Part shown: positions 18,850-37,774 of the stretch, piece by piece
Layout: each line of letters opens with the position of its first letter
Position numbering within the stretch: position 1 is the first letter of the stretch
Assembly (NCBI GenBank): GCA_003116975.1
Contig: BGKB01000005.1
Coordinates: 5,880 to 69,879, forward strand
Source of the DNA: Aurantiochytrium sp. KH105
Taxonomy: Eukaryota > Sar > Bigyra > Thraustochytrida > Thraustochytriidae
Reading direction: 5' to 3'
DNA: 64,000 nt
Notes under the pieces: generated by a model
What the model was told of the DNA's origin: nothing
Seen by the model: only the letters and a program-made list of their open reading frames with translations
The model's database searches: none
Program-made: the position numbers and the translations under genes

Positions 18850-19069
18850 GGCGTTCGTCACCCGTGGCACGCACGGGCCCCGCCTTGCTCTCGAGTCCTG
18901 CGTGCGGGTTCTGCGTGCGCGCAGGGCGGCGAAACTTCGCGCCAGCGAGGCGCCTCGCCCGCGCTCTCGCCCGCCCGCGCTGCCTCCCTGCCCGCGTGCG
19001 CGCGCGCTAGCCCGCGCGCTCGCGCCGCGCCGCTTCCGCTTCTGCTTTGCTTCTGCTTGCTTTGCTTCT

Positions 19070-19070
<1 letters not shown>

Positions 19071-19117
<47 letters not shown>

Positions 19118-19118
19118 T
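19071..19118. repeat. TTTC tetranucleotide microsatellite
   Basis: Twelve TTTC units about 220 bp upstream of the kinase ATG. On the minus strand it reads as GAAA and would encode KERK repeats. Confidence 0.9.
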
Positions 19119-20075
19119 GTTTCCTTCGCTGCTGCTGCTGCCGCTTCTGCCGCTGTCTGTGCCGGGGCTGCTTTTCGCTTCTTCTTCTCTTGCGCAAGGC
19201 GTCCGTCCTACAAGTGGTTCTTGGAGAGGTTGTCCTGGCACCCAGGTCTCGCGGTGGTATACAGGATGTCCTTGCCGTGCGAGGTGTCCTTCTTTATCCT
19301 CGATCTTCTTTCTCCTGGTGCGTGTCTTGTTCGGCCTTTTGCGTTGCTTTGCTCTGGCTTGGGCTAGCTGGTGTCCTTGTCCTGCACGTCCTCCGTGACC
19401 ACCTTGGAGCGCGCCGCTTTGAGGGACGACGGAGACGGAGACGAAGATGCGAGCGCCTTATCGCCGCGGCGAGGAGGCGCAGTCGACGCGACGGCCCGAG
19501 CTGGGGCGCGCTAGCTAGGCGGCTCGAGCTAGGTGCGATCAACAAACACGACACGAGGGGGATGAGAGGAGAGGAGAGGAGGATGAGACCTCGCGATTTG
19601 GATGCTTTTCAAGCCAAGGCCGCCGCTCCGCTCCACTCCACTCCGCTCGTGCGCGGTACCGCCGCGCGGAGCCAGCAAGAGCCCTCGACGCGGTATACGC
19701 GCGCGCTTGCGTGCGTGTCTCGCTCGCCGCCCGCCCGGCGCGCTGGCTGCCTTGCAGGGAGGGAGGGCTGGCTGTGCAGGGGGCGGCCAAGTCCCCGGGA
19801 CCGCGTGCGGCTCCGAATCGAGGACGCGGGCTCTCCCGCCGGCGAGCGTTTCGCCGCGCCGTGCCCGCGCGCCGGCCGGCTGCCGCTGCGCCTGGCTGGC
19901 TCGCGCACCGCGCGCGAGCCCCGGTCTCCCGCGCGGCGAGCCGAGGCGAAACGAACCAGGTCGGCCGCCGGGTCTGCCCGGGCTCCGCGCCTCGCTCGCC
20001 TGGGCTGCGTCGCACGCGAGAGAGCTAGCGTGCGCGCGCGCGTGGCTCCCGCTGCCTCGCCCCGCCGCGCCTCAG

Positions 20076-20107
20076 GTCGCGTCGCGTCGCGTCGCGTCGC
20101 GTCGCGT
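20076..20107. repeat. GTCGC pentanucleotide microsatellite
   Basis: Six perfect GTCGC units, immediately followed by a different pentanucleotide array. Confidence 0.85.
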
Positions 20108-20110
20108 GGC

Positions 20111-20145
20111 TCTGCTCTGCTCTGCTCTGCTCTGCTCTGCTCTGC
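20111..20145. repeat. TCTGC pentanucleotide microsatellite
   Basis: Seven perfect TCTGC units, abutting the GTCGC array. Confidence 0.9.
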
Positions 20146-20924
20146 TTGCGTTGCCTCGCTTCTCCGCGCGCGGCCAAGCTCGAAGCTGCCGAGGCCTCGC
20201 TCGTGTTTTCCTGGTCTGGTCGAGCCTCGCGCTGCCTGCTTCGTCCTCGTGCGTGGACGAGGCTCGAGCTCCTGGTGCTCGACGCTGCTCTCGCGCAGCT
20301 CCTCCCTCGCGCAGGGCCGCGCGGACCGCTCGCCCCGTTGCAGCTTTGATTGCTGGTTGGTTTGTTTGCTTGTTTCCTGGCTGGTTTGTGCTGGTCTGCT
20401 TGGGCCCAGGCACGCAAGCGAGCAAGCAAGCAAACTTTGCGTGTTTTTCTCTGGCTGGTCGAGTGGTTGAGCGGCGACTTCGATGCTGCCGTCCTTCGTG
20501 GTCCTCTTGCCGGAGACGGCGACGGGCACGACCTGCTCTTGCAGGATTCCAGAGAATGGGACTCCAGAAAGGGTGCTTGCTCCCTCGAGACTTGGACGTC
20601 CGTGCCGGGCTTGATTTACTTCTCAGCGCTCTGCAGCTGGGTCTCTTGGTCACTACGCCACTAATAAGAACCCGCTGCGCGTGTAAAAGTGATCCAGGGA
20701 AGCTAGCATAGCCGTGCCGGGGACTGGCGTGTGGCCAAGAGCAAATACAAAATGAAGCCTCCTTCCCATCCCCTCTTTCCCTGCCCCCTTCGAGTGCTTC
20801 GACGAGGTCGTGCTTCGACGAGGTCGTGCGCGTTGGGCGCGGGCTCGTAACCGCTGCTGGTACCCGGCAGGCAGGAAATGGTGAAGGTCGGGTCGGCTTG
20901 GGTTGGGTTGGAGTGAGCTTTTTT

Positions 20925-20974
20925 GGCAAGGCTAGGCTAGGCTAGGCTAGGCAAGGCTAGGCTAGGCAAGCAAG
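20925..20974. repeat. GGCTA/GGCAA pentanucleotide array
   Basis: About ten units, mostly GGCTA with interspersed GGCAA variants. Confidence 0.85.
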
Positions 20975-21574
20975 CTCTCTCTGGTCATCATCATCATCAT
21001 CGACTGGGACGCAGGGATGTGCGCACGACAGTTCGCCACCGTGCACGACCGTGCACGACGCAAAACCCAAGGAGGCAGACGACAGCTGCCCGAGGAAACG
21101 TCCAGGTCGAGGCACGCGAACGACTTCGGGAATGAAGGGGGGGAGGGGGGGGGGGAATTTGGGCCTGCGAGCAAGAGCAGTAGCGCGAGCGAGCAAGGGG
21201 GGCTAGACTCCTTCGTCGCAGCGGCCTTGCGGGCGCGATGGATTCCACTCTGTCTCGCTGAATCGACGCGACGAGGTGACCTCGGCTGATCAAGCATGCA
21301 AGCAGCTCGCTGTCAGGTGCAGTCAGATAAAAACACAAGGAGGCAGGGCATGGAAAGATGATTGCTAGTTTTTAGAGATTGGCCAGGGGGGACGACGGCA
21401 GCGAGTGTGGTCATGGATCCGTCGGCTTGCCTTGCACTGACGGCGCACCGCATGAACAAGAAAACGAGGATTCCTGCGCCTCCGACCTCAAGCCGGCAGG
21501 CCCTTCTCCCCCTCCCTGCATGCGAACAAGAGCGAAACCGCTCGAGCGCGGCGGAGGCTTGGCTCGTACGTTGC

Positions 21575-22310
21575 TTACTCCTCCTTGCAGTCGGCAAAGA
21601 CCATCTTGAACGTCTTGAGGTCAGGGTTCTTGGCGAGAATCTCCTCGTCAACATCGTCGAGCTCAACGAGGGACTCGATCTTCTCGTAGTCACCAACGTA
21701 GGTGGTCTCCTCGCCGTCCGTAATAAAGACTTGAGGGTAGTTGCCGGTGACACCGCTGATGGCCGTCAGCTCCTTGCGCACATCCTTCTCGTCGATAGCA
21801 TCGACCTCCTGGTAGCGGATCTTCTTGGTCTGCATCCACGTGATCACACGGCGCTGGCCGTTCTCCGTGGCGATCGTCGGCGCTGTAAATGTTCGTCAAC
21901 ACGCACAAGAGGCGCGGCAGAGTGTTAGTCAGCCTGTCATTCTTCGCAAGACGCAACTTGGCTGTATCCGAGCTTTTTGTTTTTTGCTTTTCTTTTTTGG
22001 GGGCTCGACGTTGCTCTCGCGTGCGAGCACGACGCGCTGTTGCCGCTGCGCGTTACGGGAAAACACCCATTCACGATGCAGGGCAGGACGCGAACGTTTC
22101 TGCATGCACGCCCGCGCTCGCGCGCGAGAGCACGAGCAGCGCGCAGCTCGCAGAGCGTCCGCGTCATTTCCCTCGCTCAGACCTTCTTGCTTGCGCCACA
22201 ATTCACCTCCTGCTCCATCTCCTTTTTTCGAACTCCTGCGCGGCGTCGCACGCGCGCGAAGCGGGGGACTTACGGGACGGGGTGACGAGGATGAGAGCCT
22301 TGTGCGACAT
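21575..22310 (-). CDS. SH3BGRL-like thioredoxin-fold protein (two exons)
   Basis: Spliced gene of 114 residues: exon 1 22274-22310, intron 21883-22273, exon 2 21575-21882. Exon 1 encodes MSHKALILVTPS and ends at a consensus GTAAGT donor. The acceptor is TTTACAG. The join is in frame (37 + 308 nt = 115 codons with stop). The product has the SH3BGRL fold of the glutaredoxin family: a first beta strand (ALILVTPS), a helix (RVITWMQTKKI), strand YQEVDAIDE, helix KDVRKELTAI, the cis-Pro region NYPQVFITDGEETTYVGDYEKIESL, and a C-terminal acidic helix. The redox CxxC is absent, as in SH3BGRL proteins, so it is probably a non-enzymatic adaptor. It is the only clearly intron-bearing gene in the window. 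Confidence 0.82.
21883..22273 (-). other. intron of the SH3BGRL-like gene
   Basis: 391 bp, GTAAGT donor (minus strand) and TTTACAG acceptor. Splicing restores one continuous thioredoxin-like frame. Confidence 0.8.
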
Positions 22311-24172
22311 GGTGCTTGCTTACGCGACGCTTCGACAGCGAGACACGGACCGAGAGCGCGCGCGACGAGAGAGGTGGGGCGGTCGGTGCACACGTGGATT
22401 GATTCTGCGTTTGCTTTTTGCTTTCTCGATTTGTTGTGAATTTTCCGCTCTGGGCGACTTTAAGCTATGCCCCCCTTTTTTCGCAGCTCACTGCCACGCC
22501 TGGTTCAGGCGGCATTCTACAGCACAACTTGGAAACACTGTGCAGCAGTATTCTTGCGGACATGGCGTAGAGCGCTACGGGCCGCGTTTCGTGAGCTTGG
22601 TCGCTCACGTCTTGGTCGCTGCCTGCGAAAAGACAAATAATTTGGCATTCGGCCAATCTTATTCGTCGGATTGGTTGTTTCGGAGACACACGCGGGCACG
22701 TGCGTCCCTTTCACGTCATTCCTTTTCAAACCATCGACCAGAGAGACAAATGAACACCATCCTAAGAATAGTTTATCTACAAATGAACCCCCCATTCTCC
22801 CTTGAGACGGACGACTTGGTTTTACGTGTTGTAGAAAAAATGAAAAGAAGAAGCAGGAAAAGAAGAAGAAAAAATCTTTGCGAGCGCTTTACGAGCCACA
22901 AACAAGAACCCATCTTGCCAGCCAGCTGCAGCTGGAGCGAGAGACCGGAGATGGAGAAAGTGTGCGAAGGGAAATCAGAATCAAGCGCTTGCTTGATACA
23001 AGGTAAAAAAACATACAAACACTGATCAATCTAGGTGTCCACAAGGTCAACACCCAGATCTCGCGTGCGTGAACTCACAGCCTGGATTTGGCGTGCGCAA
23101 ACTCCTTCAAATCCAACTACAAGCGCTCCGCGAAAGCCCCTCGCTCGTCATCCCACCCGCCCTCTGCAACTGCGACAGAAACCTCGGTAACTGCCTCGTT
23201 CTCTACGGAATCGTCTCAATCAGCACAGAAAGCGCACAGCTCGCCCATGTCACCAGGTATCTCCGTGCAAGAACGACCCTTTACAACAAAATTAACACCA
23301 AAATTTTTCCGGAAATCGAAAACTCCGTCGGCAAAACCGCGCAACCCAGGCTGCCCAACTTCTTCGCCAAAAGATTCGCAGCCGCCATGGCCATGATCAA
23401 ATGAGACGGCTATTGCGGCATCAACATGCCAGCAGCCTAACGTCAGGGCCGCATTCTTCCCCAAAACTTTCTCAAATTGAGACGCGAGTAAACAGAGCCT
23501 GTGCCGATTGAATGGTCCTTCATGCCACCTGTCTTGTCGGCACGGGCCCGCAGCGCTTTTTTCAGATCCACATTGCCGTCTTCTCGTCCAATCACGCGAT
23601 CCCTCATCGCGAGCCAGACAAAGAAACCGCTTGCCTGGATCAAGGACGCTACGGGGGGTTCTCATCCACCTCGATCACAACGTTGCCCAACAATTCGTTG
23701 CCAGCTGCGAATGCTGTTTCATTTTCACGGCTTTGACGCGTGAAAGGTGAGAACCTGTCAGAGCAATGCAGGACCTTGGAACCGAGCTCATCCAGCTCAA
23801 GCTTGAGATAGAACGTGCATGCCTAGTTCAAAAGAATCCCATGACGGTCGTCGCGCGACACTATATAGCAGCAAATCTGCGCAACAAGCTTTTACTTTTG
23901 CCGATTTCGATTTCGGCTTCTTTTTCTTTCTCTTTTCTTCGCTTTTCTCTTCGTGTCGAGCATTCCAGGAAATCCGGGACATGTCCCGGATAACCAACCC
24001 AATGGCACGCGCTGGCTCGTCGCGTGTGCAGACTTGCAACTACGCCCCGAATCGGCCCGACCGCGCCAGCGCCGCTTGACAGCGCGCACTCGCGCGCCCA
24101 GCGTGTCCAACTCCCCCTTGCGCGCTCGCGTTTCCCCTCGTCCCCCCTTTCATCGTCCGCAAGGAGAACAAG
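22311..24172. other. 1.86 kb region upstream of the TIR/TPR cluster
   Basis: Lower GC than its surroundings. Several medium ORFs on both strands overlap (23069-23404 plus, 23216-23665 minus). Minus-strand pieces between 23440 and 23815 have a coding-like look in more than one frame but no recognised family, so a decayed gene is possible. The final 200 bp is homologous to the sequence upstream of the second TIR/TPR gene and carries the palindrome listed next. Confidence 0.35.
23972..23991. promoter_or_regulatory. perfect 20-bp palindrome upstream of TIR/TPR gene A
   Basis: ATCCGGGACA followed by its exact reverse complement, about 180 bp before the ATG. The counterpart before gene B (about 28690-28716) keeps ATGTCCCGGAT and has a separate 12-bp palindrome CCGAAATTTCGG. 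It could be a dimeric regulator site or hairpin. Function inferred only. Confidence 0.5.
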
Positions 24173-26065
24173 ATGAAGAAGGCCATCGCCAAGAGGTCTA
24201 GCGCGGCACGTGCCAGCTTGCAGCGCATCCGCTTCAGCTTCACGCGCAAGGCGGACGACGAGATCTTCTCCGAGGACGCGCGCAGGATCGTCGACCCACG
24301 CAGCATCTCCCTACGCGCCATCAAGGAGCTCCGCGACGAGGTGCTCAGCGGAGAAGCCGCCGCTTCGGTTGAGCTGTATGTGGCTAAGCGCGACCTCTCT
24401 GGCAAAGTCAAGAAAGGTGCCACCATCCAGGCCCTGCGCACCAAAACGAACGGCAAGCTGCAAGGTCGCGTGCCGTACGTCGGCGTGCCCATCACCTTTG
24501 AGCCCGGAAAGGACGCCGATCCCAAGCCCCGTCAAGACTGGAGCACGGAAGATGTGGCTGAACATGTGGTGCTTGCCTTGACCAAGAATCTGCCACAGGC
24601 ACAGTTCTACCTCAGTCTGCTCGAAGAAGAGGACGTTGGAGCAGATTTTCAAGGCACTTTTGTGAGTCAGGCGCGCAAGTGCCGCTTCAAGGACCTCGTC
24701 GCAGCTCTCGAGGACCACTTTGGCCAAGACGCCGACACGGCCTTTGTCTGGCTTGACCTCTTTTGCGCGAACCAGCCTCTGCTGACCAGCGCAGACGAAG
24801 ACCTGTCTCCCAAAGTGGTTTCTGCGCGGAACCAGTATCTGACGCACGGCTTGCATCGGGCAATCGGGCGATTCGGAAGCGCGGTCATCTTCTTTGACCG
24901 CTGGGACGTGCCCGCGCCGCTGCAGCGGGCCTGGTGCGTATGGGAGATCATGGGCGCCATTACGCAGGCGCAGAGTTTCGAGGTTATTTTTGCGCCTGGA
25001 CAAGAGCAGGCTTTTGTCGAGGCGCTGCTTGAGGATGTTTCTGGATTGGCCAAGGTCATGGCCGATAACAACAATATGCGCGATGCAGAGTGCTGGAAGA
25101 AAGAAGACAAGGAAATGATTGACAAATCAGTCGAAGCAACCGTGGACGGTGGCTATGTGACACTGATCAAAGAGGTCAATCGACGCGTGCACGCATGGCG
25201 GCTGAAAATGGCGCGAGACGCAGTATTGGAAGCTCGGAGTGGTGATGGTGATGCAATTGAGCTTGCTCAGATTCTTGTTTGCACTGGTTTACTTTTACAC
25301 AGCCAGGGCGAGTACATTGAAGCTTTGCAGATGCTCGAGGAAGCGCTGTCGATTCGCAAGGAAAGTCTTGGCGACCGGCATCCCTCAGTGGCGACCACGC
25401 TCAACAACATCGCCTTAGTGTATCACCCACAAGGCCGCTACGAGGAGGCCTTGGCGTACTACGAGGAAGCGCTGTCGATTCGCAAAGAAAGTCTTGGCGA
25501 CCGGCATCCCTCAGTGGCTCAAACGCTCAACAACATCGCCTTAGTGTATTACAATCAAGGCCGCTACGAGGAGGCCTTGGCGTACTACGAGGAAGCGCTG
25601 TCGGTTCGCAAGGAAAGTCTTGGCGACCGGCATCCCGATGTGGCTCAAACGCGCAACGGTATCGCCGGCGTGTATTGCTCACAAGGCCGCTACGAGGAGG
25701 CCTTGGCGTACTTCGAGGAAGCGCTGTCGATTCGCAAGGAAAGTCTTGGCGACCGGCATCCCGATGTGGCGATCACGCTCAACAACATCGCCTTAGTGTA
25801 TCACTCACGAGGCCGCTACGAGGAGGCCTTGGCGTACTACGAGGAAGCGCTGTCGATTGCGAAGGAAAGTCTTGGCGACCGGCATCCCGATGTGGCGACC
25901 ACGCTCAACAACATCGCCAACGTGTATAACTCACAAGGCCGCTACGAGGAGGCCTTGGCGTACCACGAGGAAGCGCTGTCGATTTTCAAGGAAAGTCTTG
26001 GCAACCAGCATCCCTTTGTGGCGATCGTGCTCAACAACATCAGGAAACTTCGCGCATTAATGTGA
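24173..26065 (+). CDS. TIR-like domain / kinesin-light-chain-type TPR protein A
   Basis: 630 residues from ATG 24173. Residues 1-155 are an N-terminal domain without a known family (basic start, ends WSTEDVAEHVVLAL). Residues about 158-330 look like a TIR-fold domain of the kind fused to TPRs in protists: TFVSQARKCRFKDLVAALE, FVWLDLFCANQ, AIGRFGSAVIFFDRWDVP, LQRAWCVWEI (Glu258 is the candidate catalytic-type acid). From about 365 come TPRs: one degenerate unit, five full 42-residue units (25349-25978) beginning SIxKESLG and containing HPxVAxTLNNIA, and a capping half unit (GNQHP). Repeats are nearly identical in DNA and differ at a few fixed codons. Architecture suggests a sensor that recruits a TIR-type effector (inference). 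A paralogue lies at 28925 and a headless array between them. Confidence 0.8.
   Translation: MKKAIAKRSSAARASLQRIRFSFTRKADDEIFSEDARRIVDPRSISLRAIKELRDEVLSGEAAASVELYVAKRDLSGKVKKGATIQALRTKTNGKLQGRVPYVGVPITFEPGKDADPKPRQDWSTEDVAEHVVLALTKNLPQAQFYLSLLEEEDVGADFQGTFVSQARKCRFKDLVAALEDHFGQDADTAFVWLDLFCANQPLLTSADEDLSPKVVSARNQYLTHGLHRAIGRFGSAVIFFDRWDVPAPLQRAWCVWEIMGAITQAQSFEVIFAPGQEQAFVEALLEDVSGLAKVMADNNNMRDAECWKKEDKEMIDKSVEATVDGGYVTLIKEVNRRVHAWRLKMARDAVLEARSGDGDAIELAQILVCTGLLLHSQGEYIEALQMLEEALSIRKESLGDRHPSVATTLNNIALVYHPQGRYEEALAYYEEALSIRKESLGDRHPSVAQTLNNIALVYYNQGRYEEALAYYEEALSVRKESLGDRHPDVAQTRNGIAGVYCSQGRYEEALAYFEEALSIRKESLGDRHPDVAITLNNIALVYHSRGRYEEALAYYEEALSIAKESLGDRHPDVATTLNNIANVYNSQGRYEEALAYHEEALSIFKESLGNQHPFVAIVLNNIRKLRALM
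25349..26062 (+). repeat. 126-bp TPR-coding tandem repeat, array A
   Basis: Five full copies plus a partial one of a 126-bp unit. Conserved blocks such as GGCCGCTACGAGGAGGCC are invariant, while the codon after SI, the codon after HP, and the codons after IA and VY change. Confidence 0.9.
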
Positions 26066-26112
26066 CTCGCCGCCCCAACCTAACTAAAACTAAAATCTTG
26101 ATTTACAGGTGT
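26061..26112 (+). repeat. short repeat R, copy 1 (possible 47-nt intron)
   Basis: Starts TGTGACTCGCCGCCCCAA directly after a TTAA (26057-26060), contains CTAACTAAAA and ends in TTTACAGGTGT. A second copy lies at 28097-28142. GT at 26062 to AG at 26108 would make a short intron with a CTAAC branch-like site, but splicing here does not lead in frame into the next TPR array. Confidence 0.6.
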
Positions 26113-26210
26113 GTGTTACCCTAACTGGTCATCTGAACCTAACCTAGATTTTAGATCTCTTTTTCTTAGACCCCTTTGCACTAACCTAGCTAACCCAACC
26201 TGGTCGAGCG

Positions 26211-27385
26211 AGGAGGCCTTGGCGTACTACAAGGAAGCGCTGTCGATTTACAAGGAAAGTCTTGGGGACCGGCATCCCGATGTGGCGACCACGCTCAACA
26301 ACATCGCTTATGTGTACAAAGAACAAGGCCGCTACGAGGAGGTCTTGGCGTACTGGGAGGAAGCGCTGTCGATTTACAAGGAAAGTCTTTGGGACCGGCA
26401 TCCCGATGTGGCGACCACGCTCAACAACATCGCCTTAGTGTACAAAGCACAAGGCCGCTACGAGGAGGCCTTGGCGTACTTCGAGGAAGCGCTGTCGATT
26501 CGCAAGGAAAGTCTTGGCGACCGGCATCCCGATGTGGCGACCACGCTCAGCGGTATCGCCGCAGTGTACATAGCGCAAGGCCGCTACGAGGAGGCCTTGG
26601 CGTACTTCGAGGAAGATTTATCGATTTACAAGGAAAGTCTTGGCGACCGGCATCCCTCAGTGGCGACCACGCTCAACAACATCGCCTTAGTGTATGACAA
26701 TCAAGGCCGCTACGAGGAGGCCTTGGCGTACTTCGAGGAAGATTTATCGATTTACAAGGAAAGTCTTGGCGACCGGCATCCCTCAGTGGCGACCACGCTC
26801 AACAACATCGCCGGCGTGTATTACTCACAAGGCCGCTACGAGGAGGCCTTGGCGTACTGGGAGGAAGCGCTGTCGATTCGCAAGGAAAGTCTTGGCGACC
26901 GGCATCCCGATGTGGCGACCACGCTCAACAACATCGCCTTAGTGTATGACAATCAAGGCCGCTACGAGGAGGCCTTGGCGTACTACGAGGAAGATTTATC
27001 GATTTACAAGGAAAGTCTTGGCGACCGGCATCCCGATGTGGCGACCACGCTCAACAACATCGCCGGCGTGTATTACTCACAAGGCCGCTACGAGGAGGCC
27101 TTGGCGTACTGGGAGGAAGCGCTGTCGATTCGCAAGGAAAGTCTTGGCGACCGGCATCCCGATGTGGCGACCACGCTCAACAACATCGCCGCAGTGTATC
27201 ACTCACAAGGCCGCTACGAGGAGGCCTTGGCGTATTGGGAGGAAGCGCTGTCGATTTTCAAGGAAAGTCTTGGCAACCAGCATCCCTATGTGGCGACCGT
27301 GCTCAACAACATCAGGGAACTTCACGCATTAACACGGAGTTCGCGAGTGAAATGTACCAAAAACAGCAGGCCAATCGGCACCTAG
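26211..27385 (+). pseudogene. headless TPR array (third array, no start codon)
   Basis: About 390 codons in one open frame containing eight full 42-residue TPR units and the same GNQHP capping half unit as gene A, but no Met anywhere in the frame and no N-terminal TIR-like domain. It begins abruptly inside a repeat (SSEEALAYYKEAL) after about 100 bp of unrelated sequence. The end reads through a TTAA into LTRSSRVKC..., shared on the opposite strand with 28071-28092. Several units carry EEDL or AYWEEAL variants not seen in gene A. It is either a 3' exon of an unrecognised spliced transcript, a truncated pseudogene, or a silent repeat donor. Open frame over 1.1 kb means it is recent or maintained. 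Confidence 0.7.
27333..27354 (-). repeat. repeat L, inverted copy
   Basis: Its reverse complement matches 28071-28092 at 20 of 22 positions. It directly follows TTAA at 27329-27332, where the third TPR array ends. Confidence 0.7.
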
Positions 27386-27547
27386 ACCCCTCCGGCTTTG
27401 ATTTTTTTTTCGAATCAGTTGGTCGACCGTTTACCCAACGGCGAGAAACGTCGATTGCCGCACTCTTGGTCTGCAAAGTCAACTCGTTGCAAAGTTAGAC
27501 CCGGGCGCCCTATGTAATATATGGGCAGGCGGGCGCGTGAAGGGNTC

Positions 27548-27688
27548 CGCGAGAAGTGGGACCAGACCGAGGCAGACTGGAGCGCGATGCCAGGCGACAA
27601 GCCGGCGTCGTTTCCGGACGACAAGCAGCTCAAGACCAAGCTCGCCAACATGAAGCATGCCCTCAAGAAGCAGAGGTCGGAGGTTTGA
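27548..27688 (+). pseudogene. fragment of an FPDDK-domain protein (3' end)
   Basis: 46 codons to a TGA reading REKWDQTEADW...SFPDDKQLKTKLANMKHALKK. This resembles the C terminus of the polyQ protein at 36947 (ADFPDDKKIATKIANLKTSLRKR). It starts just after the single ambiguous base N at 27545, with no start codon, so it is a gene fragment or is cut by an assembly join. Confidence 0.55.
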
Positions 27689-28070
27689 CGACTTGCTGAC
27701 CCCAGACGTAACGATAAACAAAGATCATTCCGATGCATTTGCGCTAATCCAACTCTTCTACCCCGTCCATGCAGTACGTCCATGGCCTTGTCACGCCCTC
27801 CACGCCTCCGCAAGGCCCGCACGCCCGCCCAGGGCCTCGCAGGTCCCGGTTCTGCCTGCTTGTTCCCTATGATGCTTGCTGATGATTAGCTGCTGATTAG
27901 GTGTTTGCCGGGCCGAAGCAACTTTGCAGAGACGGCCCGCACGCCCGCGCCCTTCCGGCCGGCGTCCTCCCTCGGGGGGGCGCGCACGCTGCCGCGGCCG
28001 CGCGCCGATCGAAGCAAAGCCGGACAGGGCTGATGCCCAGAACCTCTGGCAACAAGGAGAGGCCAGGTGG

Positions 28071-28142
28071 CACTTTACTCGCGAACTCCGTGTTAATGTG
28101 ACTCGCCGCCCCAAACTAACTAAAACCTTGATTTACAGGTGT
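28071..28142 (+). repeat. intact L-TTAA-R junction, R copy 2
   Basis: L (28071-28092), TTAA (28093-28096) and R (28097-28142) are contiguous here. R matches 26061-26112, and L matches the reverse complement of 27333-27354. GT at 28098 to AG at 28138 could be a 41-nt intron. Confidence 0.65.
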
Positions 28143-28514
28143 CAAGGGTGTGCGCAAGCTGCAAAAGGCGCTGGACGCCGGCGAGGTGGCGCTGGTGTGC
28201 ACGCAGCCGACCGCGCCGCTTGCACTGGAGAGCTCTGCGCGGGAGCGCCTCAAGACGTGCGATCTGACCAAGGCAGTGAATGCAAAGCTTTGCGCGCCGG
28301 GTTCATTTCTTACGACGAGCGCTGCGACCTTGCTGATGCGATGTTTGCACGCGAGGACTTCGCGCATCAAGACACCTTGTTTGTCACGCAGCTTTTGTCT
28401 CCGAAAAAGGAGTTGGGGGACCTTTTATGCAAGGATATTGCGTCTGAGCTGCGCGAAACGCTCCGCGAGAAGATCTCGCCGCAAGCCTTGGACCACATGT
28501 TGGCGCTGTATTGA
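28139..28514 (+). pseudogene. unrecognised coding fragment after R copy 2
   Basis: Starts right after the candidate acceptor TTTACAG, with VKGVRKLQKALDAGEVALVCTQ in one frame. It passes near 28290 into another frame reading RAGFISYDERCDLADAMFAREDF...LRETLREKISPQALDHMLALY to a stop at 28514. Both halves look coding in composition, so one frameshift (or sequencing error) in a single former exon is the simplest reading. No ATG start and no known family. A/T-rich sequence with AATAAAA follows (28553-28560). Confidence 0.5.
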
Positions 28515-28924
28515 ATTGACACGAACGAGTGTCGAATGAGGATTGATTAAGGAAAAATAAAAGAAAAATTGATGATCGATTGGCTTGTTGACTGAATGGC
28601 TTGCCGATTGATTGATTGGCTTGCTGACTGATTGGCTTGCTGACTCACTTTATTGGATGACGACCATGCCGATCATCTTGCTTATCACCCCGAAATTTCG
28701 GATCATGTCCCGGATTTCCGACTCAAGACACGCGCTGTGCAGACTTGCAGGCACGCGCTGGCTCGTCGCGTGTGCAGACTCGCATCACTGTCCCTCGTTC
28801 GGAGACGCCCCTGGCCGAGGCTACGCCACGTGCGAACGCATACTACCGTGCCCGGCGTGTCCACCTCTCTCGCGCCTTTCCGCGGCCGCTCGCCTGCGTC
28901 GCCTGCAGCGAAGGAGAACACAAG

Positions 28925-31576
28925 ATGAAGAAGGCCATCGCCAAGAGGTCCAGCGCGGCACGTGCCAGCTTGCAGCGCATCCGCTTCAGCTTCACGCGCA
29001 AGGCGGACGACGAGATCTTCTCCGAGGACGCGCGCAAGATCATCGACCCGCGCAGCATCTCGCTGCGTGCCATCAAGGAGCTCCGCGACGAGGTGCTCAG
29101 CGGAGAAGCCGCCGCTTCTGTTGAGCTGTACGTGGCCAAGCGCGACCTCTCTGACAAAGTCAAAAAAGGCGCCACTATTCAGGCCCTGCGCACCAGGGCG
29201 AATGGCAAGCTGCAAGGTCGCGTGCCGTACGTCGGCGTGCCCATCACCTTTGAGCCCGGAAAGGACGCCGATCCCAAGTCCCGTCAAGACTGGAGCACGG
29301 AAGATGTGGCTGAGCATGTGGTACTCGCTTTGACCAAGAACCTGCCCCAGGCGCAGTTCTACCTCAGTCTGCTCGAAGAAGAGGATGTTGGAGCAGATTT
29401 TCAAGGCACCTTTGTAAGCCAGGCGCGAAAGTGCCGCTTTCAGGACCTCGTCGCAGCGCTCGAGGACCACTTTGGTCAAGACGCCGACGCTGCCTTTGTC
29501 TGGCTTGACCTCTTTTGCGCGAACCAGCCTCTGCTGACCAGCGCAGACGAAGATCTGCCTCCCAAAGTGGTTTCTTCGCGGAACCAGTATCTGACGCACG
29601 GCCTACATCGGGCAATTGGACGATTCGGAAGCGCTGTCATCTTCTTTGACCGATGGGACGTGCCCGCGCCGCTGCAACGGGCCTGGTGCGTTTGGGAGAT
29701 CATGGGCGCCATTGCGCAGGCGCAAAACTTCGAGGTCGTCATTACGCCAGGACAAGAGCAGGCTTTTGTCGAGGCACTGCTTGAAGATGTATACGGATTG
29801 GCCAAGATCATGGCCGATAATAACAATATGCGCAATGCAGAGTGCTGGAAGAAAGAAGACAAGGAGATGATTGACAAAGCAATCGAAGCAACAGTGGAAG
29901 GTGGCTACGTGACACTGATCAAAGAGGTCAATCGACGCGTGCACGCATGGCGGCTGAAAATGGCGCGAGACGCAGTATTGGAAGCTCGGAGTGGTGATGG
30001 TGATGCAATTGAGCTTGCTGAGATTCTTGTTTGCACTGGTTCACTTTTAAAGAGCCAGGGCGAGTACATTGAAGCTTTGCAGATGCTCGAGGAAGCGCTG
30101 TCGATTCGCAAGGAAAGTCTTGGCGACCGGCATCCCTCAGTGGCGACCACGCTCAACAACATCGCCTTAGTGTACAAAGCACAAGGCCGCTACGAGGAGG
30201 CCTTGGCGTACTACGAGGAAGATTTATCCATCAGCAAGGAAAGTCTTGGCGACCGGCATCCCTCAGTGGCGACCACGCTCAACAACATCGCCTTAGTGTA
30301 TGACTCACAAGGCCGCTACGAGGAGGCCTTGGCGTACTACGAGGAAGCGCTGTCGATTAAAAAGGAAAGTCTTGGCGACCGGCATCCCTCAGTGGCGACC
30401 ACGCTCGACAACATCGCCGGCGTGTATTACTCACAAGGCCGCTACGAGGAGGCCTTGGCGTACTACGAGGAAGCGCTGTCGATTAAAAAGGAAAGTCTTG
30501 GCGACCGGCATCCCTCAGTGGCGACCACGCTACACAACATCGCCTTAGTGTATGACTCACAAGGCCGCTACGAGGAGGCCTTGGCGTACTACGAAGAAGC
30601 GCTGTCGATTTGCAAGGAAAGTCTTGGCGACCGGCATCCATATGTGGCGGCCACGCTCGACAACATCGCCCAAGTGTACAAAGCACAAGGCCGCTACGAG
30701 GAGGCCCTGGCGTACTACGAGGAAGCGCTATCGATTAAGAAGGAAAGTCTTGGCGACCGGCATCCCTCAGTGGCAACCACGCTCAACAACATCGCCTTAG
30801 TGTATCGCAATCAAGGCCGCTACGAGGAGGCCTTGGCGTACTACGAGGAAGCGCTGTCGATTTTCAAGGAAAGTCTTGGCGACCGGCATCCCTCATTGGC
30901 GACCACGCTCGACAACATCGCCAGCGTGTACAGAGCACAAGGCCGCTACGAGGAGGCCTTGGCGTACTACGAGGAAGATTTATCCATCAGCAAGGAAAGT
31001 CTTGGCGACCGGCATCCCTCAGTGGCGACCACGCTCAACAACATCGCCTTAGTGTACAAAGCACAAGGCCGCTACGAGGAGGCCTTGGCGTACTACGAGG
31101 AAGCGCTGTCGATTGCGAAGGAAAGTCTTGGCGACCGGCATCCCTCAGTGGCGACCACGCTCAACAACATCGCCTTAGTGTATGACTCACAAGGCCGCTA
31201 CGAGGAGGCCTTGGCGTACTACGAGGAAGCGCTGTCGATTAAAAAGGAAAGTCTTGGCGACCGGCATCCCTCAGTGGCGACCACGCTCAACAACATCGCC
31301 TTAGTGTACAAAGCACAAGGCCGCTACGAGGAGGCCTTGGCGTACTACGAGGAAGATTTATCCATCAGCAAGGAAAGTCTTGGCGACCGGCATCCCGATG
31401 TGGCGACCACGCTCAACAACATCGCCGGCGTGTACAGAGCACAAGGCCGCTACGAGGAGGCCTTGGCGTACTACGAGGAAGCGCTGTCGATTTTAAAGGA
31501 AAGCCTTGGCGACCGACATCCCTATGTGGCGATCGTTCTCGAAAGCATGCAAGACACTCGGGAGAGAATGACATGA
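28925..31576 (+). CDS. TIR-like domain / kinesin-light-chain-type TPR protein B
   Basis: 883 residues from ATG 28925 (same start context as gene A). The first roughly 390 residues are nearly identical to gene A: unknown N-terminal domain, TIR-like domain (TFVSQARKCRFQDLVAALE, FVWLDLFCANQ, FFDRWDVPAPLQRAWCVWEI). Then follow one degenerate TPR, eleven full 42-residue TPRs (30101 onward) and a different capping half unit (DRHPYVAIVLESMQDTRERMT). Repeat number is more than twice that of gene A. Unit variants at the x of SIxKE are R, S, K, C, F, A and L; after NIA are L, G, Q and S; after VY are KA, DS, YS, RN and RA. The upstream leader is homologous to that of gene A, so regulation may be shared. 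Probable immune-type or allorecognition sensor (inference). Confidence 0.82.
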   Translation: MKKAIAKRSSAARASLQRIRFSFTRKADDEIFSEDARKIIDPRSISLRAIKELRDEVLSGEAAASVELYVAKRDLSDKVKKGATIQALRTRANGKLQGRVPYVGVPITFEPGKDADPKSRQDWSTEDVAEHVVLALTKNLPQAQFYLSLLEEEDVGADFQGTFVSQARKCRFQDLVAALEDHFGQDADAAFVWLDLFCANQPLLTSADEDLPPKVVSSRNQYLTHGLHRAIGRFGSAVIFFDRWDVPAPLQRAWCVWEIMGAIAQAQNFEVVITPGQEQAFVEALLEDVYGLAKIMADNNNMRNAECWKKEDKEMIDKAIEATVEGGYVTLIKEVNRRVHAWRLKMARDAVLEARSGDGDAIELAEILVCTGSLLKSQGEYIEALQMLEEALSIRKESLGDRHPSVATTLNNIALVYKAQGRYEEALAYYEEDLSISKESLGDRHPSVATTLNNIALVYDSQGRYEEALAYYEEALSIKKESLGDRHPSVATTLDNIAGVYYSQGRYEEALAYYEEALSIKKESLGDRHPSVATTLHNIALVYDSQGRYEEALAYYEEALSICKESLGDRHPYVAATLDNIAQVYKAQGRYEEALAYYEEALSIKKESLGDRHPSVATTLNNIALVYRNQGRYEEALAYYEEALSIFKESLGDRHPSLATTLDNIASVYRAQGRYEEALAYYEEDLSISKESLGDRHPSVATTLNNIALVYKAQGRYEEALAYYEEALSIAKESLGDRHPSVATTLNNIALVYDSQGRYEEALAYYEEALSIKKESLGDRHPSVATTLNNIALVYKAQGRYEEALAYYEEDLSISKESLGDRHPDVATTLNNIAGVYRAQGRYEEALAYYEEALSILKESLGDRHPYVAIVLESMQDTRERMT
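30101..31573 (+). repeat. 126-bp TPR-coding tandem repeat, array B
   Basis: Eleven full copies and one partial copy of the same 126-bp unit as arrays A and the headless array. Some whole units are identical to one another; others differ only at the fixed variable codons. Confidence 0.9.
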
Positions 31577-32350
31577 GAAATGCCCGCGACAGGATGCCTC
31601 CCGCGCGAAATTGGCCAAAACAAGTTGAGAAAAACAGGTCCAAGCTAAACCTAAAAAATGGGTTTATACTTACCTGCTGCTTTTTAATCCCGCCATCAAA
31701 CTAGCCGCACTCGGCGCGAAGCCGCATTGCACGCTGCATCATCGTCTCGCCGTCGCCAGGATCGTCACGCGACCGAGTCTTCTGCCGCGTCTGCACGCCG
31801 CTCTTTTTCTCAAGCCGTCTCTTCTGGCCTCGAGTCCGAATCACCTTCTCGCTTGAAGCAATACCAGCTTCCTCCTTCGATTCAGACCGCGACCTCTTGG
31901 CAACGACTATGCCTATCTCGCGATCTTAAGTCTTCTCTCCTTTAGCAGGAACCACTTGCCTACCTTCAGGCACATCTTCACGCTTCTCCAGTTCTCCAGG
32001 AAGCTCACGCCTAGGAGACAATTGCCTATCCTCGAGCGGGGCCAGCTCAACCTCTTGCTGTTTCACCAGATCATAGTGCTTCTCGTTGGGAGGACCTTCC
32101 GAGCTCGCTTCTTCTGGCAAATGTCGTGGGCGATTGCTCTGGATGAACCTGCGGCCGAGCGCGAGCTCAAGTGGGGGCTGCTGGTTCAGGTTTTTTGTTG
32201 AGCGCATTCGCCTCTATATTCTGCTGCAAGAAATTGAGAAGAAAAATGTAAATAATACTGGCCTTGAGCTCATCGAACTCGGCCAGCTCAACGGAGTTTT
32301 TTTTTCAGAGTCAAATGATGATGGCTTTACATAAGAATTGGAAATGTACT
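31577..32350. other. region downstream of gene B, weak coding remnants
   Basis: Minus-strand ORF 31926-32207 (rich in Glu, Pro, Arg) and further open minus-strand sequence at 31704-31925 have coding-like composition but no family I recognise. A degraded gene or mobile-element piece is possible. It serves as the 3' flank of the sulfur transporter gene on the minus strand. Poly-T at 32298-32306. Confidence 0.3.
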
Positions 32351-33469
32351 TTAGAACTTGATTTCCGCAAAGTTGCCTGAAGCAGCAGCGAAAATCATGC
32401 CGCCAGCGAACATCCCAGCGACAGTGATAAGGGATGCAATGGAAAGCTGGGCCATGCCACTAAGACCATGACCCGAAGTGCAGCCTCCACCAAGACGAGC
32501 GCCAAGAAGAAGCAGGAAGCCGCCCACGAAGGCGTTAAGGTTGGAACCTGCGCCGTTGGCATAGGTTGGTGCGAGCATCGGGTAGCCGCTAAGGTATTGT
32601 GAGAGCGCAGCGCCAGCCATGATGCCGGTGGAGACAATGACCTGAAAGAGCGGCTTGCGATCCTCGCGCACTGCAGTCAGGTACGGGGCATTCTTGTCGA
32701 GGTTGCGGTCAAAAAATCCGGCAATGTACGAGGCGATGAGCACCCAGCCTGAGGACTGGCCGAGAGCCTTGCCAGAGCTGAGCTGGACCGGAATCTGCAG
32801 CAGGCCGAGCAAAAGGCCGGCGAGCGCAGGATCCCAGTACTGCGCGTCAAGCTTACCGTGCTCATAGTTCGCAAATGGCGGGGCTGCTGCGAGGATGCGA
32901 GCCTGTGAGTCCTGCCAGGGAAAGGTCGTGTCGAGGGCGGCAAGAACGCCGGCGCCCATGGCGACAAAGGCGATCGATCCAATTGCGTACGGGAGAAAAC
33001 TGGGAATAAGGTCCGATTCTTCGGCGGTGTTACGCTTGAGAAAGTCGGGGTTCTTGCAACCGAGCCTTTCCAAGTAGCCAAAGGTAATGGCGCCCAAGAG
33101 ACCGCCGGCAAGAATGCTCATGGTGAAAGGCATACCAGCGCCAATCTGCGCCCATACGGTGCCGGGGCAGCTTCCCGAGAGATACATGCCGGCGCCCAGA
33201 AGAAAGCCTCCCACGAGATTGGCGCCGTAGCCGCCGAGCATGTTGAAGCCGAGGGCGGTGCCGCGTTCGGCCTTGCGCTCCTTGAGTCCGAGGGCGTGCA
33301 GTGCGAGAACGACGGCTGCCGAGGTGGAGCTCGCGGTGAGGAACATGCGCATCATTGTGAAATCGCGCATTTCCATCTGCTGCGAGATGACCATGGGCAC
33401 ATTCGTGTGTGCTTTGTCGAGCGCGAATCCGAAGACCGTCCCTGCACCGAGCGCGATAAGGCCGTCCAT
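32351..33469 (-). CDS. YeeE/YedE-type sulfur-compound transporter
   Basis: 372 residues from the first ATG (33469). A membrane protein of about nine to ten helices in two pseudo-repeats. Each half has the diagnostic motif: GAGMYLSGSCPGTVW (Cys101) and LLLGARLGGGCTSGHGLSGMAQLS (Cys330). This is the YeeE/YedE (DUF395) family, whose structurally known bacterial member TsuA takes up thiosulfate by relaying it between conserved cysteines. A hydrophilic linker (about 135-157) separates early helices. No organelle presequence is evident. Most members are bacterial, so an ancient transfer is possible. A TACGA pentanucleotide repeat lies 53 bp upstream. An SQR-like flavoprotein occurs elsewhere in the window, but linkage is loose. 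Confidence 0.87.
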   Translation of the reverse strand: MDGLIALGAGTVFGFALDKAHTNVPMVISQQMEMRDFTMMRMFLTASSTSAAVVLALHALGLKERKAERGTALGFNMLGGYGANLVGGFLLGAGMYLSGSCPGTVWAQIGAGMPFTMSILAGGLLGAITFGYLERLGCKNPDFLKRNTAEESDLIPSFLPYAIGSIAFVAMGAGVLAALDTTFPWQDSQARILAAAPPFANYEHGKLDAQYWDPALAGLLLGLLQIPVQLSSGKALGQSSGWVLIASYIAGFFDRNLDKNAPYLTAVREDRKPLFQVIVSTGIMAGAALSQYLSGYPMLAPTYANGAGSNLNAFVGGFLLLLGARLGGGCTSGHGLSGMAQLSIASLITVAGMFAGGMIFAAASGNFAEIKF

Positions 33470-36400
33470 GTTCTCTTGCCGTTCGCTTCCTCCCAACGCC
33501 CAATCCAAAGGCCTCGCTTGCTACGATACGATACGATACGATACGATACGAGTTTTCTCTCCTCCGCTCCGCTCTCTCGCGCCGTCGATGGAAGCGTTCG
33601 GTCGAGCAACTCGCCGATCGATCGATTGGGTTTTGCGCGCCGCCGCCTTCGCGCTTCCGGGCCTCCAAGTCGGGATTCCGTCGCGCGGAGAAAAGCAGCC
33701 AGGCGCCTCTCCCACGGAGAAAAGACGCCGCGGCCCGGTGCGGCGACTGCTAGGAGCCCCGGTAGGCAGGACCTAGGGGCCCCGGCCGCCGGGCCGAGAG
33801 CTTCGCCCCTTTTACCGACTGATCCCGGTCTGTGTGATAAGGGAGAGAGCGCCACATACATACAGGCCCACTACATACTCCGCGGCTTTCCTCCGACTTT
33901 CGATCTCCTCCGACGTTCCCGAGTCCCTGCCGCCAGCCAGCCTCCTCGCGCCACGCTTGGCCAGCCAGAGCGGGCTGCCGCGCCGGCGAGGCAAGGCGGC
34001 GTGGAGCGAGCGGAGCGCATGCGGCTTCGCTCCCCTCTGCGCGGCGCGTGGAGAGAGCGAGGAGGAGATGCGCCGGCCGAGAGAAGATGGGAGAGATGGC
34101 AGGAGACGGGATGACGTGAGCGGTGGAGGCTGGACCACCGCTCAGAAGTTGGGAGGAAGCGCCGAGAGCGAGCTCGCGATCAAGTGCGGTCGCCGGGAAA
34201 CTTGCGAGGCGCATGGCGAGGGCAGCCAGATGACGAGCGGAAGGGACAAGTCGGCGAAGTCGAGTTGGCAGCTGATGACTTGAAGAAGCGTTGGGAGTTG
34301 TGATTGTCGCGGGAAACGAAGTGCAAAAGTTGGTGATCTTCTTTTCTGTGTCGAAGAACGCAGTGGTGCGCAGAAAGCGTCAAGAACATGCACGCGCACG
34401 CGCGAATCCTCGACAAAGCTTCTCTATCCATGTTCCTTTTTGAAAAATCTTCGCAACGACGACCTCCAAGTTTCATTCGCAAGAACAGGAAGAAGAAGAA
34501 GCTGAAGAAGAAGCAAACAAACGTTGCTGTCAAAGTACCACCTTGATCAGAATCTCGCCGTTCGCTTCAACACGTGTCCCTATTTTGGGGTCTCGCTGCT
34601 CGCTTATGTACTTTTTGGCGTTTCATATTGTGCGCATTCGCTTCATTGGCCCCACCCAAAAAGAAACAAAGCACGATTTGGGCATCTTGTGTTCATGGCT
34701 TTTTTTTTGGAAATCGATTAGAAATGATTTCGCTGAAAAACACGCTGAGATGACAACGCGCTTTTTCTTGCCTCATTGGTCTGTCATATCTTTCACATGG
34801 TTTAGACTTCATGAAGTCATTGTCGAGTTCATCAACCCAAAGCTCGATATAATAATGAGCATCTTATCTTCATTTCCTCTTGCTACGGTCGTCGAGAAAT
34901 GATTTCACTACAACCATTGGACCACAATAAGGAGGTGAACCTTCCCAGAGACCTGATGTCGGGCGGGAAGCTGCTCTGCGAGAGACAGATTACCGATGAT
35001 CAATATCGAAGGGGCACGATGCAGGAACAACGCCATGATCCCGCACCGTGGGAACGCGCGGAGTCGAGGACAACTACAAGACCGCGCCATTAGTTCGTGT
35101 CGAGCTTGGTCCGCGCTGCGGAAATAATAATAGTCCAACCATGGACCTACTTTGTAAAGTTGAACCAGGGTCACGACTTGGGACCACGGGGCTGAATAGA
35201 CCTGGCGGCGACAATAGTCGATGCCAGAAGCCGGCAGAACCGAAATATACACAACTACACCAAAACATGGAAGCCAACTCCGAACAGCAGCGTGAGAAGC
35301 TTTCAATCTCCGTGCTAGCCACGAAGCGGGATTTCTCTCGCGTAAAGTGAAAGCAAGTTGTTCTTCTCATCCTTTTGTTCTCTGAGAAATTACCGTCAAC
35401 AAACAATAAATTGAGGTGAGAATGCGCTTTGCTTGCCGCATTGGTCTATTCATGTGCCACACTACGTCGGCTTTATGAAACCGTTCTGATTGGACTTTTA
35501 CCCATTGTGTGTTGCGCTGCTGTAGTTGCTGCTGCAGCTGTAGCTGGCTGCTGGTATTATGCGGCCGCTGTAGATATACATACCATACGAACTCGTTTTG
35601 CCTTCTTGTCTTCTTCTTTTTACCTCCTCGCTCCCACTTCATTTGTTTTTTTGTTTTTTTTTCTTCCATTGTTTTTCCCCTTTCCTTTTCTTTTCTGCCT
35701 GATCTTCAACCGGAGGTCATCCTTGACGGGGTCCACAAAGAAGGTCATTCTGGCAGGTCCTTCACGCACACGTGCTGGACAACGCGCTTTGGCTGGACCG
35801 TCTGTCTCCGGACGTACATGCCACTTGCCTTCTTGCCTAGCACGTGTGCATACACCCCATACGAAGTTTGCTACCAACCTTGGCCACTCACCATGGTCAC
35901 TCGCAACGTTTTCTTCTCGTCTCTTTTCCTTTTCGTTCGACCCTTCCTTTTTCCCTCCTTTTCATTTCATCTCGTTCGCCCTTTTTTCACTCCCTTTTCA
36001 AGTTGTTTTTCCGCATTTCACCTCTGCTGAGCAGAGGCCTTTTCCTTTCTTTCTTTCCTTCTCTCTTTCTTTCCTTCTTTTATTCTTTTTTTCCATCTTT
36101 CCGTTTTTCTTTCGATTCACATTTCTTTCTTTTTTCAACTTTCAATTTTACTTTCGCAAGTCAAATTCAATTTATTTCCTTTCATCACCATCCTAAGCCC
36201 ACTCCTACTCTTTCCCCTATCCGATTTTTCCCTCGCCCGACCCCGACTTTCCATCGGCCCAACGGCGGCTGTTCCCGTCCGTTCCTTACTGCTCCATATG
36301 CTGTACACCCGAGTGGGTCCCGATTTTTCCCTCGGTGACCCCACCTTAACCCAGGCGTCTTTTTTCTCGCTAATTCCGCGTTTTCCTCTTTTTCCGCTTA

Positions 36401-36946: not shown

Positions 36947-37774
36947 ATGCCGCGCAGGGTGGCTGGAGACGACGCTGGGCAGGGCGGACGCGGCGGCGGC
37001 AAGCGCAAGAAGGTGAACTCCATGGACCTCCTGCAGCAGCAGCACCAGCAGCAGCAGCAACAACAGCAGCAGCAGCAACACCAGCAGCAGCAGCACATGG
37101 CGATGAACATGATGAACTTCGTGCCGCTGTTCTCGCCCAACGCGTCGCCGACCGACGTCGCACGCGTGCTGGGCCTCTCGCCGCACGAGGTGCCCATCGC
37201 GACGCACGCGTCCCACGACTATGAGCCCGTGGCCATTTTCACGCAAAAGGTGCGCACGCGCATTGCGGAGATCCTTGCGCCCGCCCACCAGCAGGAGATC
37301 ATGATGCACGACTACCCGACGGCAGCGGGCCTCCCGAAAAAGGTCTCAAAGAAGAAGCGCGGTCAGCCCCCCGCGCAGCCCGTGGCGCAGCAGCAGCACT
37401 ACCCTGACCCGCACATGAACTACGCAAGTGCCGCCATGCAGCGTCCCATGGATATGGCCATGCACCAGCATCACCATCAGCCGCACGCCCACCACATGGG
37501 GGGCGAGACCGACGTCTCGGGCGTTGGCGCTGGCGACGACAGCAAGAAGCCGCGCGCAAAGTTCCCCCACGAGTACGGCGAGCTCTTGCGGAATGAGATT
37601 ACCAAGAACCCACAAACCAAACCAAAGGAGCTCCAGTCCTGGCTCAAGGCTGTCCTTGTCGAGAAGAACGGCGGCCGTCTGCCCGCCGACTTTCCCGATG
37701 ACAAGAAGATCGCCACCAAGATTGCTAACTTGAAAACCTCTTTGCGCAAGCGGACCGAGGCCGCCGCCCGCTAG
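36947..37774 (+). CDS. polyQ/His-rich protein with C-terminal FPDDK domain
   Basis: 275 residues from ATG 36947. The first 23 residues are basic, with a GGKRKKV patch (possible NLS). Residues 25-50 are Gln/His-rich from a CAG-repeat tract (37033-37097). Residues 55-115 form a compact domain (NASPTDVARVLGLSPHEVP). A His/Gln-rich linker (about 145-185) follows. The C-terminal 70 residues are charged and helical: FPHEYGELLRNEITKNPQTKPKELQSWLKAVL...FPDDKKIATKIANLKTSLRKR. The last segment recurs in the fragment at 27548. No known family; composition suggests a nuclear DNA- or chromatin-associated factor (weak inference). Confidence 0.7.
   Translation: MPRRVAGDDAGQGGRGGGKRKKVNSMDLLQQQHQQQQQQQQQQQHQQQQHMAMNMMNFVPLFSPNASPTDVARVLGLSPHEVPIATHASHDYEPVAIFTQKVRTRIAEILAPAHQQEIMMHDYPTAAGLPKKVSKKKRGQPPAQPVAQQQHYPDPHMNYASAAMQRPMDMAMHQHHHQPHAHHMGGETDVSGVGAGDDSKKPRAKFPHEYGELLRNEITKNPQTKPKELQSWLKAVLVEKNGGRLPADFPDDKKIATKIANLKTSLRKRTEAAAR
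37033..37097 (+). repeat. CAG/CAA trinucleotide repeat coding polyQ
   Basis: Interrupted CAG/CAA run inside the coding region, with CAC interruptions giving His. Confidence 0.85.

Follow-up and report, generated by a model that had tools for sequence, protein, structure and literature searches.

A 64,000-nucleotide stretch of the genome of the thraustochytrid Aurantiochytrium sp. KH105 (bases 5880-69879 of contig BGKB01000005.1, here C5; hereafter the window) carries two genes and an orphan array built from near-identical 126-bp tetratricopeptide repeat (TPR) units. We propose, with a probability of roughly 0.6, that the family to which they belong encodes intracellular recognition receptors without a nucleotide-binding NOD core, in which a TIR-like module would be mounted on a TPR array with a diversified groove and recombining units. 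This reading is supported by the anatomy of the proteins, a site-specific excess of replacements, differences between two apparent haplotypes, and homogeneity across loci of the units but not of the N-termini. An original prediction, made from the DNA letters and open-frame translations, had seen a receptor pair forming a diversifying recognition system without an NB-ARC or NACHT domain. As an interpretation this is partly supported, the site-specific replacement excess being in its favor; the pair itself is borne out as two genes, while the locus also holds the orphan array.

The window has 27 units in three runs with 126-bp spacing inside each run, and each array lies within a single open frame. 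Pfam places the units as TPR_12/TPR_10. We numbered them with EEALSI as positions 1-6; alignment to TPR_1 (gene 1 residues 449-479 to profile positions 1-31) sets TPR position 1 at unit position 19. Cap units (score under 90) were dropped from the unit analyses, and the 24 remaining full units are all distinct. In line with the original prediction, their scaffold codons are near-identical across the three arrays and a few codons vary freely. The positions it listed (unit 7, 17, 23, 24, 27, 30 and 31) do vary, as do unit positions 3 (A/D), 20 (T/Q/I/A) and 42 (Y/F/W/H). Its further statement that the flanking silent positions stay unchanged is nearly correct, the exceptions being alternations of GCG CTG with GAT TTA, TCG ATT with TCC ATC and TAT with TAC. 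Mean pairwise amino-acid identity is 0.892 in the gene 2 array, 0.858 in the orphan array and 0.848 in the gene 1 array. For genome-wide comparisons we used 16 arrays termed high-identity (150 units; C69, with stops in its N-terminus, was excluded), only three of which exceed 0.85 (including that on C21, 0.853), with the others at 0.652-0.848.

A published TPR survey found positions 2, 5, 9, 12, 13, 33 and 34 to be the most variable and to lie on the concave face, and HOP binds its ligand through positions 2, 5, 6, 9, 12 and 13 (PMC1261162, in the portion available). The seven survey positions were preset from that source as test positions. Across the 16 arrays their mean entropy is 2.29 bits versus 0.63 at the other 35 positions, a value equalled by 1 in 100,000 random position sets, and the four most variable TPR positions are 12, 9, 13 and 2. 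The ratio of replacement to synonymous differences per site (pN/pS), obtained by a counting method rather than a recombination-aware model, is 1.91 at the preset seven versus 0.32 elsewhere in the window. The original prediction had placed several of its variable sites on helix A, facing the concave groove, and positions that line this groove do vary. For the 16 arrays the ratio is 1.41 versus 0.57, and its preset-position value exceeds 1 in 14 of them; for four degenerate arrays it is 0.87 versus 0.51. In 93 within-array pairs of window units, TPR positions 2, 5, 9, 12 and 13 show three synonymous and 260 replacement codon differences. When these five are set aside along with unit positions 7 and 17, the 35 positions that are left show 219 and 119; chance does not account for the variation. 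Certain observations pull in the opposite direction: the arrays on C170 and C78 have preset-position values of only 0.90 and 0.98, those on C1, C65 and C134 are near 1 outside the preset sites too (0.94, 0.84 and 1.04), and TPR position 34 (unit 18), one of the preset seven, is conserved in this 42-residue type.

A separate set of seven variable positions, two of which (unit positions 7 and 17) were picked post hoc, underlies the allelic, single-step, clade and string counts. At these positions the 150 units display 137 distinct seven-residue strings. Unit pairs that differ only inside the seven variable codons number 4 of 93 in the window versus 0.01 expected under random placement; the same four pairs stand against 0.38 expected among the 701 pairs of the 16 arrays. 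We also counted single-base steps between codons present within one array. Of the 295 steps at the variable positions of the 16 arrays, 35 are synonymous and 260 are replacements, where 21.6% would be expected to be synonymous (p 2e-5); the remaining positions yield 229 and 323 (24.0% expected, p 1e-19); the variable positions of the window alone give 2 and 26 (p 0.067). By these counts, replacement is favored in the groove and disfavored in the scaffold.

They also bear on two other origins of the variation. Under neutral concerted evolution, a young repeat family would be homogenised by unequal crossing-over and relaxed exposed residues would mimic diversification. The units are indeed homogenised, four of the 16 arrays contain near-identical duplicates (at most four differences), and two arrays have preset-position ratios just under 1, as noted above. 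However, relaxation alone can yield neither a pN/pS above 1 nor the deficit of synonymous single steps (35/295 versus 21.6% expected), and we hold this account to be rather improbable. Alternatively, the variable codons might be subject to targeted hypermutation of the kind that diversity-generating retroelements carry out, so that the variation would be created directly, which would fit the concentration of changes in few codons and the 150 of 260 replacement comparisons at the five positions in the window that differ at two or three bases. Yet random codon mutation would leave about 22% of single steps synonymous and only 12% are (35/295); since silent steps fall short of expectation, whole-codon random mutation is an unlikely source, and hypermutation ranks as the most remote of the explanations considered.

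The assembly (76 Mb in 367 contigs) probably represents the genome as two haplotypes. Window positions 32340-33520 and 16522-19000 have one 97%-identical partner each, both on C21, and window and C21 DNA are collinear over 15663-23886 (93%) and 30971-34251 (91%). C21, the apparent other haplotype, bears a single gene with four full units and a cap, versus arrays of 5, 8 and 11 units in the window. In alignment, this gene corresponds to gene 1 at its start and to gene 2 at its end; synonymous differences per site (pS) in the N-terminal region are 0.19 between it and gene 1, 0.22 between it and gene 2 and 0.19 between genes 1 and 2. Just upstream of the C21 gene a 1.1-kb stretch (C21:651174-652289; L031, L051) has no match in the window, and we interpret it as an insertion or deletion between haplotypes.

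Six further pairs were taken as allelic from matching upstream DNA (C62/C52 in two pieces). C170 has 10 units versus 14 in C78, and C106 and C115 have 12 each; thus repeat-number polymorphism is present between alleles, that is, between two apparent haplotypes of one genome. Replacements occur at 13/28 aligned variable sites between C5 gene 2 and C21, 33/70 between C170 and C78 and 16/84 between C106 and C115, together 62/182, and in four degenerate pairs at 1/70, 6/63, 0/42 and 1/28, together 8/203 (both totals summed by hand). The allelic N-termini have dN/dS values of 0.09-0.43 in six of the seven pairs and 0.79 in C106/C115. Left out of these sums were C65/C134 and C243/C40 (24/56 and 36/49), whose upstream match spans only 250-290 bp. 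C62/C52, C200/C97 and C86/C46 were compared at a lower unit score limit (60), and their unequal unit numbers were not counted as polymorphism, C52, C200 and C97 ending 1.5 kb after the N-terminus and C46 lacking a short piece of one unit. Collapse or expansion errors of the assembly might conceivably account for the array lengths and for the differences between haplotypes, a concern raised by an N in the window (position 27545) and by stops or frameshifts in some family copies (C69, C115). Against this, the distinctness of all 24 window units is unlike collapse, both members of the degenerate pair C35/C9 came out of the assembly with ten units that match each other, and assembly cannot produce a replacement bias; hence, we consider such an artefact very improbable.

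At E up to 0.001, at least 106 places across the genome match the N-terminal domain, with 106 of the 117 candidates scored. By a hand count, 56 of the 58 places that cover at least 250 of its 388 residues are stop-free; many of them belong to pairs that appear allelic, and high-identity arrays accompany only some. A tree built from 25 N-terminal protein sequences contains two clades, I and II, that bear high-identity arrays, each supported at 100/99. Between them (with C115 and the orphan array omitted) N-terminal pS is 0.674 over 48 pairs, lying at 0.56-0.79 in every block and at 0.719 in the block next to the array, whereas the TPR scaffold has a pS of 0.198, ranging from 0.107 to 0.288, with the first unit at 0.151. 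Scaffold pS is 0.154 (clade I) and 0.173 (clade II) within arrays, and 0.189 and 0.197, respectively, between arrays of the same clade. Silent constraint on TPR codons cannot explain these low values because the degenerate arrays differ by 0.66 from clade I and by 0.70 from one another. Given that silent divergence drops at the first unit, the units appear to have been homogenised across distant paralogues, the simplest account being ectopic exchange across distant loci confined to the array. We tentatively raise the possibility, which we think has somewhat less than an even chance, of a genome-wide pool of TPR cassettes exchanged among TIR/HET-fold receptor genes with deeply diverged N-termini: a NOD-less repertoire that rapidly re-assorts, new receptors arising by germline or even somatic exchange, such that the two haplotypes of one individual carry different repertoires. 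Two unit dialects at unit codons 9-10 (GAA AGT and GAG GCC) are sorted mostly by array (C82, C65, C134 and C1 versus the others) and cut across both N-terminal clades. The clade I N-termini on C195 (L032) and C217 (L012/L040) are followed by one recognisable unit and none, respectively, and may have lost their arrays.

Turning to the N-termini, scans of these 388-389-residue regions alone found no NB-ARC or NACHT domain and returned only DUF7067 (E 0.4), as the original prediction would have it; the TPR array follows directly. Its proposal of a TIR-like effector at the N-terminus has weak fold matches of a predicted structure in its favor, and no profile match. An AF2 model from a 37-row alignment (25 close paralogues minus 8 near copies plus 20 distant paralogues) is confident (pLDDT 91.7) and predicts an SH3-like barrel, residues 65-119 in gene 2, that precedes a TIR-like part both there and in homologues. 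A first model from the 25 close paralogues was poor (pLDDT 64.3) and matched mostly SH3 and helical-repeat folds, with no TIR among the 50 matches listed. With the good model the SH3-like part takes up most of the fold matches and those to TIR are weak; on these weak fold matches we provisionally assign the N-terminus as SH3-like plus TIR-like, within the TIR/HET fold group. Gene 2 has the motifs FVWLD (residues 191-195) and C-x-x-E (residues 255-258), the latter string being present in 21 of 22 genuine TIR sequences of the same genome. Glu258 is kept in 35 of 37 members, with Q in the other two, and is predicted to lie in a helix (224-235 of the model) after a strand (207-212). With the TIR domains of plant SNC1 and RPP1, bacterial AbTir and SARM1 the family would have in common the order of alpha and beta elements, as predicted, and a glutamate located in a helix that follows a strand, but there is no sequence-profile similarity to them and the fold matches are weak.

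No member matched a TIR profile at E up to 1, either in a set of 25 or in one of 37, and hhalign against TIR gave 0.6%. A PDB sequence search with the N-terminal profile returned nothing meaningful, and scans with two peptide patterns gave 31 bacterial or archaeal and 14 viral stretches, none of which was confirmed as a relative. The TIR_2 profile has at least 150 above-cut-off places in the genome (150 of 258 candidates scored) in open frames of 173-2016 residues, a TIR repertoire that is very large for a single-celled eukaryote. None of the 150 places listed coincides with the 106 family places when compared by eye, and the nearest (C5:74223-74531) is 4.3 kb beyond the window end. The HET domain (PF06985) has been proposed as a distant TIR relative (PMC4986451, PMC10197012, in the parts available). 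Two of the 37 members match it, all below the curated cut-off (best 16.5 bits versus 22.5), L063 over HET positions 3-65 and L065 over 39-61; the genome-wide HET search gave no match and is uninformative, as no control genome matched either. An N-terminal W-x-D block, followed by A-N-Q and later by a W-x-x-x-E-like block, resembles, as we take it, the HET motifs.

Fungal HET-domain genes act in allorecognition, and the sub-threshold matches, along with the very different alleles at one locus in one genome, would suit a narrower version of the receptor proposal in which alleles separate self from other individuals at cell contact. The two very different alleles of a diploid would, however, have to be compatible in one cell, and dozens of loci seem excessive for such a role, which makes this sub-case unlikely. 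Equally doubtful to us is the idea that these are polymorphic cargo adaptors or scaffolds, kinesin light chain (KLC)-like TPR proteins that track changing host cargos and not non-self. The gene 2 array does have kinesin light chains, with which it shares the 42-residue TPR type, as its closest solved structures by sequence (KLC1, E 1.6e-53), and their TPRs bind peptides in the same groove. On the other hand, the replacement excess, the length differences between apparent haplotypes and the TIR-like N-terminus are unusual for adaptors; KLCs have an N-terminal coiled coil where the window family has its TIR-like module, and to our knowledge they display neither a TIR-like N-terminus nor hypervariable near-identical repeats.

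The receptor reading can be put as a mechanism. An SH3-like plus TIR-like module would be joined directly to a KLC-type superhelix of 42-residue TPRs. In the part of the family that includes the window, its scaffold would be kept near-identical by recombination within arrays and between loci genome-wide. Selection would diversify the groove-facing residues, and unequal exchange and conversion would generate new combinations and lengths of the binding surface. The groove might bind a peptide or protein, with specificity arising from the variable residues of successive units, and the ligand could be a variable non-self molecule of a parasite or virus, or a self marker. Binding would then cluster the TIR-like domains, which may signal or kill, perhaps by NAD cleavage. 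Because there is no nucleotide-binding switch, ligand clustering or release of inhibition would have to act in its place.

The closest parallel is provided by the Podospora NLRs with TPR, ANK or WD repeats of high internal conservation (HIC), in which concave TPR sites are under selection and repeat numbers vary (PMC4986451, PMC12222747). The present family shares with them highly conserved repeats, repeat-number polymorphism, selected concave sites and, it appears, exchange within and between genes. The fungal proteins have a NACHT or NB-ARC core, whereas here the N-terminal module adjoins the array, no NLR/STAND nucleotide-binding domain is found, and the host is not a fungus; the contrast between homogeneous units and N-termini of high silent divergence further sets the present family apart. 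The fungal HIC mark is more than 85% identity between repeats over at least 100 residues (PMC4986451, same portion); two of the three window arrays lie above it and gene 1 just under, on mean pairwise identity, which is not that paper's own measure. In brown algae, NB-ARC-TPR and LRR-ROCO candidate receptors have shuffled repeat exons and LRR concave sites under selection (PMC11378527, part of the text). The likeness lies in the shuffled repeats and the stramenopile setting, but the algal genes shuffle exons and keep their NB-ARC or ROCO core, while each window array is one open frame without a core. A partial text on DNA-binding repeat proteins (PMC11417379) offered no TPR code to test. Among literature titles and abstract openings, in a search that most subscription journals lay outside, no such family was described for thraustochytrids, and the main text of a thraustochytrid comparative genomics study (PMC12258536) lacks the words TIR, TPR and tetratricopeptide. 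The evolutionary regime resembles the one already known from fungal NLRs with highly conserved repeats; what is new is the absence of a NACHT/NB-ARC core, the non-fungal host, the differences between two haplotypes in one genome and the diverged N-termini against a shared pool of units.

The features of the locus are collected below.

Table. Features of the receptor-like locus (window coordinates).
Feature	Position	Strand	Remarks
Gene 1, 630 aa	24173..26065	+	SH3-like + TIR-like N-terminus (predicted, from similarity to gene 2), 5 full TPR units + C-terminal cap
Gene 1 TPR array	25337..25966	+	5 full 126-bp units
Orphan TPR array open frame, no N-terminal domain	26111..27385	+	8 full units + cap at 26231-27332; TTAA element disrupts 3' end
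Dispersed element, inverted ends (CACGGAGTTCGCGAGT...)	27333..28092	.	TTAA duplications 27329-27332 and 28093-28096
Gene 2, 883 aa from ATG	28925..31576	+	predicted SH3-like + TIR-like N-terminus, 11 full TPR units + cap
SH3-like barrel, gene 2 residues 65-119 (model 36-90)	29117..29281	+	predicted structure
TIR-like alpha/beta part, gene 2 residues 159-272 (model 130-243)	29399..29740	+	predicted structure
Gene 2 TPR array	30089..31474	+	11 full 126-bp units, the codons at unit positions 7, 17, 20, 23, 27, 30, 31 varying most
Gene 2 C-terminal cap unit and stop	31475..31576	+	end resembles end of single gene on C21

The listed ATG is the most likely start of gene 2. The 3' flank of gene 1 (26056-26110) recurs with small differences at 28093-28141, past the orphan array and the element, a sign that the orphan array probably arose by duplication of the gene 1 tail. 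The alternative, that splicing continues gene 1 into the orphan array, is disfavored because gene 1 has a stop and a cap unit of its own and because of this repeated flank. The 760-bp TTAA element, which from its TTAA we presume to be piggyBac-like, is inserted in the tail of the orphan array (27329-28096), and the final residues of the orphan frame are read-through into it. Counting its own position, at least 40 places in the genome match most of its length, with 40 of the 134 candidates scored. By eye, its stretch at about 27520-27690 resembles the end of the frame 36947-37774 (FPDDK ... K.AN motif), and the element may contain a captured gene piece. The flanking frames 16522-19197 and 32351-33508 resemble, also by eye, a protein kinase and a membrane transporter, respectively, and no tRNA was found within the window. 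Elsewhere in the genome, C72 and C155 hold two copies of a PfaA-like PUFA synthase, which at 930 bits fall short of the family cut-off (1010); 11 of the 14 control genomes likewise gave matches below the cut-off. Together with introns that look few by eye, the two copies would fit a thraustochytrid assembled as two haplotypes.

Repeat receptors that diversify have been reported from fungi, plants, animals and brown algae, in most cases built on a core that binds nucleotides or is a GTPase. The large family described here appears to use the same evolutionary recipe with an effector-like module directly on the sensor array, in a lineage of protists about whose immunity little has been learned. 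Its diverged N-termini, set against a homogeneous TPR pool, allow a clean test of cassette exchange on a genome-wide scale, and the groove positions named above provide a concrete candidate for a binding code.
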